Of a DNA stretch of 64,000 bases, positions 46,530-53,270 are shown piece by piece. The DNA comes from Gammaproteobacteria bacterium (GTDB taxonomy: Bacteria > Pseudomonadota > Gammaproteobacteria > Enterobacterales > Permianibacteraceae). The stretch's first letter is position 1. Each line of letters starts with the position of its first letter. The stretch lies in NCBI GenBank assembly GCA_016182845.1, contig JACPFT010000009.1:1-64000 (forward strand), given 5' to 3'. Under the pieces are notes generated by a model, which saw nothing but the letters and a program-made list of their open reading frames with translations, did not search any database and was not told the origin of the DNA. The translations under genes and the position numbers were made by a program.

Positions 46530-47522
46530 TCACTGCCAGGGCCGGTGGTAGGCGCCCAGGGTGGTCTGCGTGCCTTCGGATACGGAGGCGAGGGCCTGGT
46601 GCCAGGCGGGCTCGGCGCGGAATTCGCCGTCCTGGTTCACTCGGTCGATGGCGGCGCGCCAGACCTTGGCCACGGTGGTGACATAGGCCGGCGAGCGCTG
46701 GCGCCCCTCGATCTTGATGGCCTTGATCCCGGCTGCCTTCAGGTCCGGCAGCAAATCCAGGGTATTCAGGCTGGTGGGCTCCTCGAAGGCATGGTAGGTG
46801 GCCCCGCCGACCTCGAAGCGGCCCTTGCACAGGGTCGGGTAGCCGGCGGTTTCCAGGGGCGCGAAGCGGTCGATGAGCACGCCGTTGAGCCGCGACTCTA
46901 GGTTTTTTCCCACGTTCTGCCAGCGCACGGACTTGGCCGGCGAGCAGGCGCCGCAGCTATTGGGCGACTCGCCGGTCACGTAGGAGGACAGCTGGCAGCG
47001 GCCTTCCACCATGACGCAGAGCGAACCGAAGCCGAAGACCTCCAGCTCCACTGGCGTCTGTTCCGCGACCATCTTAACCTGCTTGAGGGACAGGACTCGC
47101 GGCAATACTGCGCGGCTGATGCCGAACTGCTGCTGATAGAAACTCAAGGCCTCCTGGCTGGTGGCCGAGCCCTGCACGGACAAATGCCTAGGTACTTCCG
47201 GATAGGTCTGGGCGCAATAATCCAGGACGCCCATGTCGGCGACAATGAGGGCGCTCACGCCCATGTCCACGGCCCTGTCCACGGCTTGTTTCCAGCGTTC
47301 GAAGCCGCTGGGCTGGGGATAGGTGTTGAGGGCGAGGAAGACCCGCTTGCCGGCTCGGCGCGCATGGGCGATACCCTCGCGCATGGCCTCCTCGGTGAAA
47401 TTGAGGCCGGTGAAATGCCGGGCATTGGTGTCGTCGCGAAACCCCAGGTAAACCGCATCGGCGCCGTGGGCGATGGCGGATTTCAGGGCCGGCAGATTGC
47501 CGGCCGGGCAGACTAGCTCCAT
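46530..47522 (-). CDS. ubiU: O2-independent ubiquinone hydroxylation protein UbiU (U32 family)
   Basis: Partner of UbiV. The 330-residue protein starts MELVCPAGNLPALKSAI. C169, C176, C193 and C232 (SLCVMVEGRC, GACSP, LCKG) coincide with the recalled cluster ligands of E. coli UbiU. The U32 signature EVFGFGSLCVMVEGRCQLSS is at 161-180. The start overlaps the stop of yhcC by 10 nt, so yhcC-ubiU-ubiV form one operon, probably driven by the FNR-type promoter at 48471-48511. Longer upstream reading is inside yhcC and is not used. Confidence 0.94.
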   Translation of the reverse strand: MELVCPAGNLPALKSAIAHGADAVYLGFRDDTNARHFTGLNFTEEAMREGIAHARRAGKRVFLALNTYPQPSGFERWKQAVDRAVDMGVSALIVADMGVLDYCAQTYPEVPRHLSVQGSATSQEALSFYQQQFGISRAVLPRVLSLKQVKMVAEQTPVELEVFGFGSLCVMVEGRCQLSSYVTGESPNSCGACSPAKSVRWQNVGKNLESRLNGVLIDRFAPLETAGYPTLCKGRFEVGGATYHAFEEPTSLNTLDLLPDLKAAGIKAIKIEGRQRSPAYVTTVAKVWRAAIDRVNQDGEFRAEPAWHQALASVSEGTQTTLGAYHRPWQ

Positions 47523-48442
47523 GATCTTTCTCCCAATGCGCTGCCCTGGCCGCCCAGGCGCTGCAAGTTCTCGCCGATGGCGTTCAACACCGGCCATTTG
47601 TGCGCGCACCAAGCGGGCGCCAGCAATAAATCGTCCTGAGCGGTTCCGGTCAGGCGGTGGTAGACGACCTCGGCCGGGGTGCGGCGCACGCATTCCGCCG
47701 CCACCGCCACATAATCGTCCTGGCCTAGGGGCTGGTACTCGCCGCGCCGCCATTGCCAGGCGAGGTAGGTATTTTTCACCACATGCAGGGGATGTAGCTT
47801 GAGGCCGTCCACGCCCAGTTCCAGTACGCGCTCCAGGCTGTCCAGGGTTTGTTCCGGCGCCTCGCCGGGCAGGCCGACGATGAGGTGAGTGCAGAGCTTG
47901 ATGCCGCGCGCCCGGGTTCGGCGCACGGCGTCGGCGTATTCGGCGAAGCCGTGGCCCCGGTTGACGCGCGCCAGGCTGTCGTCGAAGGCCGATTGCAGGC
48001 CCAGCTCCAGCCAGACCTCGTAGCCCTCGTCCTGATAGCCCTGCAATAAGTCCAGTACCGGATTCGGTACGCAATCCGGGCGCGTGCCCACCGACAGGCC
48101 GATCACGGCCTGTTCCGCTAGGGCGGCGCGGTACAGCCGATCCAGGGTTTCGACTTCCTCGTAGGTATTGGTATAGGCCTGGAAATAGGCCAGGTATTTC
48201 TTCGTGCCGAAGCGGCGTTCCACATGGGCACGGCCCCGCGCCAGCTGGGCGCTTAAGTCCTCGCGGGTTTTCTCATTGGGCGAAAACGAGGCGTTGTTGC
48301 AGAAGGTGCAGCCGCCATGGCCCTTGGCGCCGTCCCGGTTCGGGCAGGTGAAGCCGGCCTCCAGGGACAGCTTGTGCACGCGCTCGCCATGGCGCTGGCG
48401 CAGGTAATCGCCGAGGCTGTGCACATAGCGGTTGAGCTGCAT
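47513..48442 (-). CDS. radical SAM protein of the YhcC (TIGR01212) family
   Basis: A 309-residue radical SAM protein of unknown substrate. The family has an unusual cysteine spacing, seen here as CPNRDGAKGHGGCTFC (residues 33-48), followed by NNASFSPNEKTREDL. YFQAYTNTYEEVETL and IGLSVGTRPDCVP are typical of YhcC. It is the first gene of the yhcC-ubiU-ubiV operon, which suggests it may assist anaerobic ubiquinone or Fe-S chemistry; this is inference. No strong Shine-Dalgarno is seen before the ATG. Confidence 0.88.
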   Translation of the reverse strand: MQLNRYVHSLGDYLRQRHGERVHKLSLEAGFTCPNRDGAKGHGGCTFCNNASFSPNEKTREDLSAQLARGRAHVERRFGTKKYLAYFQAYTNTYEEVETLDRLYRAALAEQAVIGLSVGTRPDCVPNPVLDLLQGYQDEGYEVWLELGLQSAFDDSLARVNRGHGFAEYADAVRRTRARGIKLCTHLIVGLPGEAPEQTLDSLERVLELGVDGLKLHPLHVVKNTYLAWQWRRGEYQPLGQDDYVAVAAECVRRTPAEVVYHRLTGTAQDDLLLAPAWCAHKWPVLNAIGENLQRLGGQGSALGERSWS

Positions 48443-48470: not shown

Positions 48471-48511
48471 AGTGTAGAGGGGAGGGCGGGTCAGGCCTTG
48501 ACCTGAGTCAA
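48471..48511 (-). promoter_or_regulatory. FNR-type promoter of yhcC-ubiU-ubiV
   Basis: TTGACTCAGGTCAA on the minus strand (48511-48498) is followed after exactly 21 nt by TACACT (48476-48471, 4/6). The predicted start is near 48464, about 22 nt before the yhcC ATG. A second FNR-type box 53 bp away serves the divergent nrdD gene. Confidence 0.75.
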
Positions 48512-48550: not shown

Positions 48551-48593
48551 TTGATCCCGGTCAAGGGTATAACAGCATCTTGTGTTTCATTAT
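48551..48593 (+). promoter_or_regulatory. FNR-type promoter of nrdD
   Basis: TTGATCCCGGTCAA (48551-48564) is followed after 23 nt by CATTAT (48588-48593, 4/6). The predicted start is near 48600 and the nrdD ATG at 48636 has GAGGAAGG upstream. Control by FNR fits an enzyme active only without O2. Confidence 0.75.
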
Positions 48594-48635: not shown

Positions 48636-50681
48636 ATGGAACAGCAAGTACAAATGCAACAGATGAAAGCGCTTGGCCAGTCGGCCCCGGGCCATGTGAT
48701 CAAGCGCGACGGCCGCCTGGTCAGCTTCGAGTCGCAGAAGATCGAACGGGCCATCGCCAAGGCCGGCCGCGCCACCGGCGAATTCGATGCCGACGAGGCC
48801 AAGCGCATCGCCGACTCGGTGCTGCGCCTGGTGGATTATCGCTTCGGCGGAGCCAAGGCGCCGCGCATCGAGCAGATCCAGGACATGGTGGAACAGGCCT
48901 TGGTGTCGGCCAATTATTTCGACACGGCCCGTTCCTATATCGTCTACCGCGAGCAGCATGCCCGCCTGCGCGCCGACAAGCGCACCCTGGTCGACGTGGA
49001 ATCCTCGGTCAACGAATACCTGAGCCGGGCCGATTGGCGCGTCAATGCCAATGCCAATCAGGGCTATTCCCTGGGTGGCCTGATTCTGAACGCTTCCGGG
49101 AAGATGATCGCCAATTACTGGCTGTCCCATGTCTACGCGCCGGAGGCCGGCCAGGCCCACCGCGAGGGCGACATCCATATCCACGATCTGGACATGCTCT
49201 CCGGCTATTGCGCGGGCTGGTCCCTGCGCCAGCTGCTGCACGAGGGCCTGAACGGTGTGCCGGGCAAGGTCGAGGCAGCGCCGCCCAAGCACATGTCCAG
49301 CGCCGTGGGCCAGATTGTCAATTTCCTCGGCACTCTGCAAAACGAGTGGGCCGGCGCCCAGGCGTTCTCGTCCTTCGATACCTATATGGCGCCCTTTATC
49401 CGCCGCGACGGCATGAGCTTTCGCGAGGTGAAGCAATGCATCCAGGAGCTGATCTACAACCTCAACGTGCCCTCGCGCTGGGGCACGCAGACGCCGTTCA
49501 CCAACCTGACCTTCGACTGGGTCTGCCCCGAGGATTTGCGCGAGTCCGTGCCCTATATCGCCGGCGAGGAAATGCCCTTCACCTACGGCGATCTGCAGGT
49601 GGAAATGGACATGATCAACCGCGCCTACATCGAGGTTATGATGCAGGGCGATGCCAAGGGCCGGGTGTTCACTTTCCCGATCCCGACCTATAACATCACC
49701 AGCGATTTCAACTGGGACAGCGAGAATGCCGGCCTGCTGTTCGACATGACGGCGAAATATGGCCTGCCGTATTTCCAGAATTTCCTCAATTCCGAATTGA
49801 AGCCGAACATGATCCGCTCCATGTGCTGCCGATTGCAGCTGGATCTGCGCGAGCTCTTGAAGCGCGGCAACGGCCTGTTCGGCTCGGCGGAGCAGACCGG
49901 CTCGGTGGGCGTGGTGACCGTCAATTGCGCGCGCCTGGGCTACCGCTTCGCCGGCGACGAAGCAGGGCTGTTGCACGAGCTGGATCGCCTGATCTATATC
50001 GCCAAGGACAGCCTGGAAGTGAAGCGCAAGCTGATCCAGCATCTGATGGACAGCGGGCTCTATCCCTATACCAAGCGCTACTTGGGCACGCTGCGCAATC
50101 ATTTCTCCACCATCGGCGTCAACGGCATCAACGAGGCGATCCGTAATTTCACTGGAGACCAGGAAAACGTAGCCACGCCGACCGGCCATGCCCTGGCCTG
50201 CCGGATGCTGGACCACATTCGCGCGCGCATGGTGGAATTCCAGGAGGAAACCGGCAATCTCTACAACCTGGAGGCCACGCCGGCGGAGGGCACGACCTAC
50301 CGCTTCGCCAAGGAAGATCAGAAACGCTATCCGGCGATTTTGCAGGCCGGTACGCGTGACAAGCCCTATTACACCAATTCCTCGCAACTTCCGGTTGGCT
50401 ATACCGATGACGCCTTCGAGGCCCTGGAAATGCAGGACGAGCTGCAGTGCAAGTACACCGGCGGCACGGTCCTGCACCTCTATATGAACGAAAAAATTTC
50501 CAGTGCCGAGGCCTGCAAAAAACTGGTGCAGCGCGTACTGACCCGCTTCCGCCTGCCCTATATCACCGTGACGCCGACCTTCTCGATCTGCCCGAAACAC
50601 GGGTATTTGAACGGCGAGCACGAGTTCTGCCCGCGCTGCGACGAGGAGAGCCTGGCGAAGAAGACCTGTGGTAGTTGTTAA
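48636..50681 (+). CDS. nrdD: anaerobic (class III) ribonucleotide reductase, catalytic body lacking the glycyl-radical tail
   Basis: Reduces ribonucleoside triphosphates to deoxy forms under anaerobiosis. The 681-residue protein has an ATP-cone (about 19-112: GHVIKRDGRLVSFESQKIER), the ten-stranded barrel region (NLTFDWVCPEDL; the cysteine in MIRSMCCRLQLDLREL), and a C-terminal zinc-ribbon-like segment (CPKHGYLNGEHEFCPRC) ending KKTCGSC. The usual NrdD C-terminus with RVxGY and the radical glycine is missing; it is found on the separate ORF at 50756. The two ORFs are in different frames and 74 nt apart. Confidence 0.93.
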   Translation: MEQQVQMQQMKALGQSAPGHVIKRDGRLVSFESQKIERAIAKAGRATGEFDADEAKRIADSVLRLVDYRFGGAKAPRIEQIQDMVEQALVSANYFDTARSYIVYREQHARLRADKRTLVDVESSVNEYLSRADWRVNANANQGYSLGGLILNASGKMIANYWLSHVYAPEAGQAHREGDIHIHDLDMLSGYCAGWSLRQLLHEGLNGVPGKVEAAPPKHMSSAVGQIVNFLGTLQNEWAGAQAFSSFDTYMAPFIRRDGMSFREVKQCIQELIYNLNVPSRWGTQTPFTNLTFDWVCPEDLRESVPYIAGEEMPFTYGDLQVEMDMINRAYIEVMMQGDAKGRVFTFPIPTYNITSDFNWDSENAGLLFDMTAKYGLPYFQNFLNSELKPNMIRSMCCRLQLDLRELLKRGNGLFGSAEQTGSVGVVTVNCARLGYRFAGDEAGLLHELDRLIYIAKDSLEVKRKLIQHLMDSGLYPYTKRYLGTLRNHFSTIGVNGINEAIRNFTGDQENVATPTGHALACRMLDHIRARMVEFQEETGNLYNLEATPAEGTTYRFAKEDQKRYPAILQAGTRDKPYYTNSSQLPVGYTDDAFEALEMQDELQCKYTGGTVLHLYMNEKISSAEACKKLVQRVLTRFRLPYITVTPTFSICPKHGYLNGEHEFCPRCDEESLAKKTCGSC

Positions 50682-50686
50682 ATCGA

Positions 50687-50729
50687 CCGTTCGTCCTGAG
50701 TAGCCGCGCAGCGGCGTATCGAAGGACTC
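50687..50729. repeat. half palindromic repeat (family 3) between nrdD and the glycyl-radical ORF
   Basis: CCGTTCGTCCTGAGTAGCCG, an inner GCCGC-GCA-GCGGC hairpin and GTATCGAAGGACT match the left arm of family 3. Only one arm is present. It sits exactly where the nrdD reading frame is split. Confidence 0.7.
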
Positions 50730-50755
50730 TTGAAGACTTAAAAAAGGAGAACACC

Positions 50756-50932
50756 ATGAATGCGAAAGTCGAACTGAAAACCGAAGAACGCACCCGCTGC
50801 GAAGTCTGGACCCGCGTGATGGGTTACCACCGTCCCGTGTCGGAATTCAATGCCGGAAAGCAGTCCGAGCACGCCGAGCGCCGGCATTTCACCGAAACCC
50901 GCTCCTGCGCCCCGCAACGAGCGGCGGCCTGA
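50756..50932 (+). CDS. separate glycyl-radical domain of class III ribonucleotide reductase
   Basis: A 58-residue protein with the NrdD C-terminal radical motif: RVMGYHRPVSEFNAGKQSEH (residues 22-41), comparable to RVCGYLGSP...FNAGKQ in E. coli NrdD, where the Gly of RVxG(Y) carries the radical. AAAAGGAG ends 8 nt upstream of the ATG, so it has its own translation start. It lies between nrdD and nrdG. I recall similar short ORFs beside nrdD in pseudomonads, so this may be a lineage trait and not a mutation. It would have to join the 681-residue body after translation. Confidence 0.88.
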   Translation: MNAKVELKTEERTRCEVWTRVMGYHRPVSEFNAGKQSEHAERRHFTETRSCAPQRAAA

Positions 50933-50936
50933 AGCC

Positions 50937-51692
50937 ATGGGCGATAGCGGCTGCGCAACGGTCGTGCCGCTCTGCGACCGAAACGAGCACACCGCCGATG
51001 CCTTGCGCATCGGCGGCTTCGTGCCCCTGAGTTCGGTGGATTATCCGGGCATGCTCGCCGCCGTGGTGTTCTGCCAGGGCTGTCCCTGGGCCTGCCGCTA
51101 TTGCCACAATCCTCACTTGATTCCGGCCCAGGGCGAGAGCGCCCTGAGCTTCGACGAACTGTGCGAATTCCTCCGCCGTCGCCAAGGCCTGCTGGACGCC
51201 GTGGTGTTCAGCGGCGGCGAGGCGACTTTCCAGAAAAGCCTGATTCCGGCGCTCAAGGCCGTGCGCGCCTTAGGTTTTCGCACGGCCCTGCACACCGGCG
51301 GCGCCTACCCCGAATTGCTCAAGCAGCTCCTGCCCCTGGTCGACTGGGTGGGTTTCGACGTCAAGGCCCTGGTGGCCGATTATCCGGCGCTGACCGGCGT
51401 ACCCCGTTCCGGCATTCGCAATTGGCAGAGCCTGATGACCCTGCTCGCAAGCGGCCTGCCCTTCGAGGCACGCACTTCCTGGCATACGGAGCTGATGAGC
51501 ATGGCGCAGCTGCGCGTCCTGGCGACCCAGCTCGCGGTGGCGGGTGTGAAGCACTACAGCGTGCAGGTGGTGCGCGGCGGCGCGCTCAAGGACGAAACCC
51601 TGGGGGCATCGCCCTGGAGCATCGACCATCGGGAGTTCGTGCATCGGGAAATCGCGCCGCTTTTCCAAGTCTTCAGTCTGCGCGAGGACTGA
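50937..51692 (+). CDS. nrdG: anaerobic ribonucleotide reductase activating protein (radical SAM)
   Basis: Uses S-adenosylmethionine to make the glycyl radical on NrdD. The 251-residue protein has the radical SAM triad C49-C53-C56 (CPWACRYC) with an extra C46, and VVFSGGEATFQ, the SAM-binding GGE motif. It is longer than E. coli NrdG (154) and resembles the larger PflA-like NrdG of pseudomonads. ATG at 50937 lies 4 nt after the glycyl-radical ORF. Confidence 0.92.
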   Translation: MGDSGCATVVPLCDRNEHTADALRIGGFVPLSSVDYPGMLAAVVFCQGCPWACRYCHNPHLIPAQGESALSFDELCEFLRRRQGLLDAVVFSGGEATFQKSLIPALKAVRALGFRTALHTGGAYPELLKQLLPLVDWVGFDVKALVADYPALTGVPRSGIRNWQSLMTLLASGLPFEARTSWHTELMSMAQLRVLATQLAVAGVKHYSVQVVRGGALKDETLGASPWSIDHREFVHREIAPLFQVFSLRED

Positions 51693-52056: not shown

Positions 52057-52368
52057 ATGAGCAAGCCCCCCAAATTTTCCCCTGAAGTCCGTGACCGCGC
52101 CATCCGCATGGTCTACGAGGTCCGTGAGTCCCACGAGTCCCAGTGGGCCGCCATTGAGGCCGTGGCCAGCAAGATCGGCTGCACCGCCCAGACCCTGAGC
52201 AACTGGATCCGCAAGGCGAGTACACCTGCCGCCCCCGCCACCCCGGCCGCCGATGCCCGCATCAAGGAATTGGAACGCGAGGTCCGCGAGTTGAAGCGGG
52301 CCAACGAGATCCTCAAGCTAGCCAGCGCTTTTTTCGCCCAGGCGGAGCTCGACCGCCGTTTGAAGTGA
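52057..52368 (+). CDS. IS3-family transposase OrfA
   Basis: A 103-residue DNA-binding protein: HTH_Tnp_1 region (KFSPEVRDRAIRMVYEVRES, then GCTAQTLSNWIRKA) followed by a leucine-zipper-like helix (IKELEREVRELKRANEILKL). T-TTT-TTC at 52329-52335, in phase with its codons (GCT TTT TTC), allows a -1 shift into orfB; that frame is open from there to 53270, so an OrfAB fusion transposase is likely. Confidence 0.95.
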   Translation: MSKPPKFSPEVRDRAIRMVYEVRESHESQWAAIEAVASKIGCTAQTLSNWIRKASTPAAPATPAADARIKELEREVRELKRANEILKLASAFFAQAELDRRLK

Positions 52369-53270
52369 GCTGGACGTTCATCGACGACCATCGGGAACAG
52401 TTCGGGGTCGAGCCCCTCTGCAAGACGTTGCAGGTGGCCCCGTCAGCCTATCGCCGCCATGCCGCCCGGTTGCGTAATCCCGAGTTGCGGTCCGAGCGCG
52501 CCAAGCGGGACGAAGCCCACTGCGCTGACATCCGCCGGGTCTGGACAGCCAACCGGGCGGTTTATGGCGCCGCCAAGGTCTGGCGGCAGATGCACCGCGA
52601 GAACCTGCCTGTGGCCCGCTGCACCGTAGAGCGGCTGATGCAAGGCATGGGGCTCCAGGGCGTAGTCAGGGGCAAAAAGGTCCGCACCACGCTCCCAGAC
52701 CCGGCGGCCGCCAGTCCTCGTGACCTGGTCAACCGCGAGTTCAAGGCCGACCGGCCAAACCAGCTGTGGGTGGCCGATTTCACCTTCGTCTCGACTTGGC
52801 AGGGTTTCGCCTATGTCGCCTTCATCATCGACGTCTACTCACGCTTCATCGTCGGCTGGCGGGTCAGCCGGCACATGCGCACGGACTTTGTTCTGGATGC
52901 GCTGGAGCAGGCCTTGCACGCGCGGCAACCGGTGCCGCACCGGCTGGTTCATCACAGCGACCGGGGCTCGCAGTACCTGTCCATCCGCTACGGCGAACGG
53001 CTCGGCGAGGCCGGCATCGAGCCTTCGGTCGGCAGTGTGGGCGACAGTTACGACAATGCCCTGGCCGAAACCATCAACGGTTTGTACAAGGCCGAACTGG
53101 TCCACAAACAGGGGCCTTGGAAAACCGTCGAGGCCCTGGAATGGGAAACCCTGAATTGGGTGGCCTGGTTCAACCAACAGCGCCTTCTTGAGCCCATCGG
53201 CAATATTCCGCCAGCGGAATTTGAGGCACTATACGCGCAGGGTCAGGCGGAAATCCGAAAAGCCGCCTGA
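52365..53270 (+). CDS. IS3-family transposase OrfB (DDE integrase core)
   Basis: A 301-residue catalytic part. The DDE triad is visible as WVADFTF (first Asp), HHSDRGSQY (second Asp) and DNALAETINGLYKAEL (Glu), in the rve fold. The GTG at 52365 overlaps the orfA stop, and the protein is normally made by -1 frameshifting as OrfAB. All key residues are present, so the element may be active. Confidence 0.95.
   Translation: MSWTFIDDHREQFGVEPLCKTLQVAPSAYRRHAARLRNPELRSERAKRDEAHCADIRRVWTANRAVYGAAKVWRQMHRENLPVARCTVERLMQGMGLQGVVRGKKVRTTLPDPAAASPRDLVNREFKADRPNQLWVADFTFVSTWQGFAYVAFIIDVYSRFIVGWRVSRHMRTDFVLDALEQALHARQPVPHRLVHHSDRGSQYLSIRYGERLGEAGIEPSVGSVGDSYDNALAETINGLYKAELVHKQGPWKTVEALEWETLNWVAWFNQQRLLEPIGNIPPAEFEALYAQGQAEIRKAA

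Follow-up and report, generated by a model that had tools for sequence, protein, structure and literature searches.

A class III ribonucleotide reductase with a separately encoded, putative glycyl-radical subunit that also occurs alone on plasmids and in viral contigs

The stretch of DNA analysed here (positions 1 to 64,000 of contig JACPFT010000009.1 from the gammaproteobacterial assembly GCA_016182845.1; hereafter the window, 64,000 nt) contains a locus for a class III ribonucleotide reductase (RNR) in which the glycyl-radical motif is not part of the NrdD protein, but lies on a separate open reading frame (ORF) between nrdD and the activase gene nrdG (Table 1). In our judgement, the locus is likely to encode a two-chain class III RNR with a replaceable radical subunit, which phages and plasmids most likely supply.

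The large chain starts with the ATG at 48636 and ends with a TAA stop codon at 50679-50681; an alternative in-frame GTG at 48582 would give a protein of 699 amino acids. It contains an ATP-cone (PF03477, residues 20-109, 86.1 bits) and matches the NrdD models NF006126 (1143.4 bits) and PF13597 (590.5 bits), the latter from position 2 to 531 of 562. Positions 532-562 are matched by the 58-amino-acid ORF (E = 1.4e-8), which carries the motif RVMGYHRP and is read in a frame different from that of nrdD. Since these positions are absent from the large chain, the small ORF is predicted to complement the missing NrdD end. An earlier sequence-only reading of this DNA had assigned the radical motif to an independent 58-residue ORF with its own ribosome-binding site, and the profile match agrees with it; likewise, nrdG does start 4 nt past the TGA of the small ORF. 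The locus shares the core and ATP-cone profiles and the adjoining radical S-adenosylmethionine (SAM) activase NrdG with class III enzymes, but the C-terminal glycyl-radical motif of the same chain is found on another ORF. Judged by its sequence, the enzyme belongs with the class III reductases as a variant departing from the one-chain feature. The window genome (3.8 Mb, 26 contigs, completeness listed as 100%) encodes one class I/II large chain, and a profile search of the whole genome gave no second NRDD match, so that the objection of a full-length NrdD elsewhere, raised in the same reading, does not hold.

Scanning genome contigs with the window large chain and keeping the best 80 of 480 loci, that is, the closest relatives, gave a collection from gamma-, beta- and alphaproteobacteria. 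The large chain stops short of the radical motif and lacks it in 80 of 80, and 78 have a separate small ORF with an ATG start, none of them fused to nrdD. As for the other two, the small ORF starts with GTG in one (L017), and the contig ends 128 nt after nrdD in the other (L048). nrdG follows within 200 nt downstream of the small ORF in 69 of the 78 loci. An alignment of 50 homologues of the small peptide (A1) has 15 invariant columns, and the radical glycine is present in every row; all 50 also match phrog_4132 at E ≤ 0.01, a family with its function listed as unknown. The median dN/dS of the host peptides is 0.19 (Nei-Gojobori, conserved core, 33 disjoint pairs); synonymous sites are often close to saturation. 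By this measure, the small peptide is under purifying selection. The palindromic repeat that the sequence-only reading had noticed in the junction could be localized, and its position there might suggest a pseudogene or a sequencing error in the window genome. But the same arrangement recurs in the 80 related loci and the peptide is under selection, so a frame-restoring error fails as an objection and the probability of either defect is negligible. The palindrome was also considered as the cause of the split and rejected: it has four copies in the window genome (within 3 mismatches), and the split is far older. At this copy number, it counts as a dispersed repeat that is unlikely to contribute to the mechanism.

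Readthrough or frameshifting could join the two ORFs during expression, and the small ORF is indeed in frame with the large one in 24 of the 78 loci. In the other 54, however, it lies in one of the other two frames (23 and 31 loci), all three stop codons are used at the end of nrdD (50 TGA, 16 TAA, 12 TAG), and the distance between the two ORFs ranges from –32 to +413 nt (median 31.5). A ribosome-binding-site-like match precedes the small ORF in 77 of 78 loci, compared with 11.0 expected for ATGs picked at random from these loci; under a stricter rule, the numbers are 61 and 1.5. Finally, in one genome (G312) the peptide gene is not linked to nrdD, but adjoins nrdG about 9 kb away, with genes on the opposite strand in between. 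Frames, stop types, gaps, ribosome-binding-site matches and this unlinked case together exclude recoding as a general explanation, and we regard it as highly improbable for the locus at hand.

Two genome surveys, which have genomes in common, gave a consistent picture. Among 398 Pseudomonadota genomes, 57 contain an NRDD match, and the enzyme is split in 15, each confirmed in sequence or as separate ORFs; none of these 15 encodes an additional full-length NrdD. The 38 matches from 369 genomes of the window's class comprise 28 two-piece enzymes, seven one-chain enzymes according to the match table and three partial or weak matches. The split was confirmed in sequence in seven of the 28 (G000, G003, G023, G050, G544, G651 and G735), the remaining 21 being called from the match table alone, and again no two-piece genome has a full-length NrdD (0/28).

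The split form is also found on the megaplasmid pHG1 of Cupriavidus necator H16, which encodes an NrdD of 676 amino acids, a 66-amino-acid peptide (H16_RS32675; its RefSeq name is also nrdD) and NrdG; a search of the whole plasmid revealed no NrdD other than this split pair. A 1999 paper on the pHG1 nrdDG genes may mention the small ORF. NrdDG of pHG1 is reported to be essential for complete denitrification (PMC2864759). Because the split pair is the only NrdD of this plasmid, the reported requirement supports an in vivo function of the split form.

A tree of 63 sequences (56 split, 7 fused; G363 left out) requires at least four changes between the split and the fused state, two of them forced by starred branches, and most split sequences fall into one large group. 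One-chain NrdD proteins encoded on Acidiphilium and Actinomyces plasmids (L129, L130) are about 74% identical to the window NrdD and are placed inside the split group, with moderate support and long branches; from this placement, they are possibly re-fusions. Plasmid records of Sulfuricurvum (Campylobacterota) also contain a split NrdD. In two species of one genus (G295 and G363), the NrdD belongs to another subfamily (619-620 bits to NRDD; G363 scores 117 bits with the profile built for the window's family). It is interrupted by a TAG downstream of the zinc-type motif, and AAAGGG and an ATG come next; the resulting 59-amino-acid ORF of G363 corresponds to profile positions 533-562. On these sequences, and as a conclusion drawn without a subfamily tree, a cut at the same place of NrdD seems to have happened at least twice. 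These data bear on a neutral explanation, namely that an ancestral nrdD broke, the chains still bind each other and the split persists without any benefit from repair or exchange. The concentration of split sequences in one group fits this explanation, as do the close one-chain relatives, in which the undivided form is viable. It does not lead one to expect a second subfamily split at the same place, nor a peptide kept alone on plasmids and many phage contigs, and we therefore consider it doubtful.

Beyond what the sequence-only reading had described, the peptide is also found by itself on plasmids and in phages. The Allochromatium plasmids pALVIN01 and pAt1 both carry the peptide, and a search of the whole plasmids found no NrdD core on either. 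Genome G651 contains a split operon and, in a prophage-like region of a different contig, an orphan peptide next to a RecT-like protein, a single-strand-binding protein and an RNR large chain. In viral contigs, a scan detected 193 stretches with the peptide, the best 80 of which were read. No NrdD or NrdG ORF was present in 79 of these 80 stretches. An NrdD core is missing from 49 of the 50 contigs that were searched in full, the exception being L188 with a split NrdD, and none of the 50 encodes a class I/II RNR large chain. Viral copies lie between the terminase large subunit and portal genes (L138), near major head and neck genes (L154), near tail-fibre and virion proteins (L204), near a tail fibre and a helicase (L165), between a DNA polymerase and a clamp loader (L157), or near tail and virion proteins (L187, L190). 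Host contamination of the viral contigs is unlikely, since the much larger NrdD core gave only five loci compared with 193 stretches for the peptide, a rough comparison because the search patterns differ, and since 49 of 50 contigs have no core. A tblastn search of GenBank phage records with three peptides gave only ANMV-1 and one faecal phage record; the phage copies described here thus come almost wholly from uncultured viruses.

The radical glycine is intact in all 74 viral copies compared, in part owing to the search pattern; outside the patterns, N32, K35, E38 and R42 are present in 74/74 and G34 in 73/74. The median dN/dS of 22 viral pairs is 0.26 (Nei-Gojobori), and here, too, synonymous sites often approach saturation. 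Phages are known to encode mimics of host components, and the phage copies of the peptide could be decoys or inhibitors that take up the docking site or NrdG and thereby shut off the host or competing phages; the lack of an enzyme core in 49 of 50 viral contigs would suit such a role. We nevertheless consider this unlikely, because the radical glycine and its surrounding residues are kept under purifying selection and because phage replication requires deoxynucleoside triphosphates (dNTPs).

The five NrdD cores of the window's family in the same viral collection (L219-L223) include one one-chain enzyme (L220) and two split ones (L221, on the same contig as L188, and L222); in L219, the contig ends right after nrdD. 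The core in L223 (1723-5316) is interrupted by an intein (PF14890, LAGLIDADG) and, it seems, by additional inserts, and no glycyl-radical piece was found in its 314-kb contig. The split large chain of L221 (2962-5415, 818 amino acids) has an insert of about 136 amino acids between two NRDD matches, for which there is no Pfam match at E ≤ 0.001. With the Geoalkalibacter NrdD as query, no NrdD was found in the viral contigs. Seven viral peptides (L143, L147, L148, L152, L175, L186 and L196) show a Cys-rich N-terminal extension (about C...C..GR..P.DC..C) that was not found in host copies, their starts not being settled. The putative archaeal virus ANMV-1 (KP703175) encodes a 144-amino-acid ORF (L224, 2686-3120) that combines a zinc-type motif with the radical part; its whole record contains no NrdD core.

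For a structural view, we used the read-through translation of locus L021, with both ORFs in one frame (741 amino acids, small chain from 681), as AlphaFold2 input. A second model, for which the 77 rows also comprised free peptides from hosts and phages, reached a mean predicted local distance difference test score (pLDDT) of 82.4 and a predicted template-modelling score (pTM) of 0.78, with block means of 83-91 for residues 691-730, all of which belong to the small chain. VIA-align superposed model residues 115-733 on residues 94-735 of the Prevotella copri NrdD (8p2s chain B; Z 34.4, root-mean-square deviation 2.7 over 544), a correspondence judged from the ends of the aligned ranges and not from residue pairs. 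The glycyl-radical domain of this protein is given as 676-739, with Gly711, in PMC11226230. With the dATP-bound chains 8p27_A and 8p28_A, the alignment reaches only model residues 642 and 641, respectively; the same source describes the glycyl-radical domain as not visible in the dATP-bound forms. In this model, the peptide sequence would fit the canonical glycyl-radical position, in cis only.

The proposal of the sequence-only reading, an active enzyme put together from two chains with the radical glycine on a small detachable peptide, is supported by the conservation of the split and by the selection on the peptide. Based on these observations, we propose the following mechanism for the presumed two-chain enzyme. 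The large NrdD chain would provide the ATP-cone, the barrel, the active-site cysteines and the zinc-type tail, while a separate protein of about 60 amino acids would bear the glycyl-radical loop. NrdG would put the radical on the small chain, probably when this is docked, and the docked loop would come to lie next to the active-site cysteine, the position that it has in one-chain NrdD. Oxygen cuts glycyl-radical proteins at the glycine. Since the radical part is always separate, such damage should cost only about 60 residues: the small and cheap chain alone would be lost, detach and be replaced by a fresh copy. We infer that phages and plasmids carrying only the peptide most likely give a fresh radical subunit to the host NrdD; phages with the peptide and without a reductase would gain from a host enzyme that is kept running.

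Several points weigh against this interpretation. The close one-chain relatives on the Acidiphilium and Actinomyces plasmids indicate that the split is not obligatory for such an enzyme. The viral loci read are only the best 80 of 193, the whole contig was searched for 50 of these 80, mostly the longer ones, and most contigs are fragments; the terminase family phrog_2 is found in 16 of the 50, the tested neighbours in L145 and L158 gave no PHROG match, and the phage host was identified in one prophage-like case only. The invariance of the viral glycine arises partly by selection, because it lies inside the peptide patterns used for the search. A first model from 35 rows was poor (pLDDT 68.7, residues 701-740 at 32-51), and neither joined model can speak for the docking of separate chains, since the parts were connected through a stop codon read as a residue. 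The requirement published for pHG1 concerns nrdDG as a whole, the small ORF not being singled out in the accessible text (PMC2864759). Translation of the peptide, binding of the chains and radical formation are predictions from sequence.

The closest known parallels are GrcA (YfiD) of Escherichia coli and Y06I of phage T4. These are likewise small free-standing glycyl-radical-loop proteins that serve a large glycyl-radical enzyme, and Y06I is phage-encoded; both replace the lost part of pyruvate formate-lyase (PMC8683613). They repair a full-length enzyme after cleavage (PMC8683613), whereas here the partner is NrdD, and its large chain never has the loop. In 2021, such spare parts had been shown for pyruvate formate-lyase only, and the authors left others open, calling spare parts for other glycyl-radical enzymes a possible and tempting speculation (PMC8683613). 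The small ORF is a separate small protein with a glycyl-radical loop as well, but it matches NrdD models only (Pfam E ≤ 0.001, NCBIfam E ≤ 0.01) and not the pyruvate formate-lyase-type Gly_radical/GrcA model. GrcA models are presumably contained in both Pfam and NCBIfam. By analogy, the peptide may work like a GrcA-type spare part while standing outside the GrcA sequence family: the design logic would be that of GrcA/YfiD, but realized as a normal, built-in subunit.

Other systems resemble the locus in part. The one-chain NrdD/NrdG systems of T4, Thermotoga maritima and P. copri share the domain order, zinc-type tail, radical motif and activase, and the model superposes, but here the glycyl-radical part is a separate protein. 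In the class II pair NrdJa+NrdJb of Pseudomonas aeruginosa, the C-terminal part of a reductase also has its own gene; NrdJb, though, is a cysteine-rich reduction domain and no radical carrier, and belongs to a different class. T4-like and lactococcal phages (phiAS4, 949) have nrdD in more than one coding region, but these breaks are sporadic and partly due to introns, inteins and homing-endonuclease genes, and the accessible text describes no conserved separate radical peptide (PMC3653736). The ANMV-1 ORF is a free-standing glycyl-radical NrdD piece as well, but it is a C-terminal piece with a zinc-type motif of its own, and its published description is that of an oxygen-sensitive ribonucleotide reductase (PMC4372165). 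No earlier description of a conserved separate NrdD radical subunit, or of its phage copies, was found in the literature covered, much of it seen in part and mostly outside subscription papers.

With respect to the zinc-ribbon-like tail CPRC...CGSC of the sequence-only reading, the zinc-type motif stands and is conserved among large chains as CPxH...CPxC; the terminal CGSC is not conserved, and a conserved redox tail on the large chain was rejected, as the tails otherwise vary among relatives. A zinc site formed jointly by the two chains, with the invariant small-chain Cys (CEVWTR) taking part, is not supported either, because this Cys is missing from the fused relatives G378, G607 and Geoalkalibacter.

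Table 1. Features of the nrdD locus in the window
Feature	Coordinates	Strand	Basis
nrdD large chain, 681 aa	48636..50681	+	ATP-cone, NrdD core, zinc-type CPKH...CPRC tail, without glycyl-radical motif
Predicted small glycyl-radical subunit, 58 aa (RVMGYHRPVSEFNAGKQSEH)	50756..50932	+	PF13597 532-562, 50 aligned homologues, purifying selection
Presumed radical glycine codon (G23 of small chain)	50822..50824	+	sequence; invariant in homologues
nrdG, radical-SAM activase, NrdG2 type	50937..51692	+	TIGR02495, 188.9 bits
Ribosome-binding site AAAAAAGGAG of small ORF	50740..50749	+	sequence
Palindromic repeat in nrdD/small-ORF junction	50690..50726	.	dispersed, 4 genome copies
FNR/ANR/DNR-like box TTGACCTGAGTCAA, upstream of nrdD	48498..48511	.	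pattern count
FNR/ANR/DNR-like box TTGATCCCGGTCAA, upstream of nrdD	48551..48564	.	pattern count

FNR/ANR-like palindromes (TTGAYNNNNRTCAA), counted with what we take to be the FNR/ANR/DNR box consensus, occur six times in the window (40199, 42939, 45001, 48498, 48551 and 56934) compared with 0.07 expected, and by this count they probably mark an anaerobic regulon cluster. Upstream of nrdD, on the opposite strand (46530-48442), lie a U32-peptidase/UbiU-like ORF, assigned by eye, and a radical-SAM protein (PF04055, PF16199); comparable U32/UbiU-like ORFs, also assigned by eye, are found between nrdD and nrdG of G312. Just 3′ of nrdG, an IS3-like transposase pair is present at 52057-53270, with the family again assigned by eye.

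Taken together, the radical part looks like a standard subunit of an essential anaerobic enzyme and, at the same time, like a common phage gene. In such a two-component system, radical installation, radical transfer and oxygen repair would be separable for study. For phrog_4132, a role as radical subunit is suggested, and the peptide would represent a very small auxiliary gene through which phages may control the dNTP supply.

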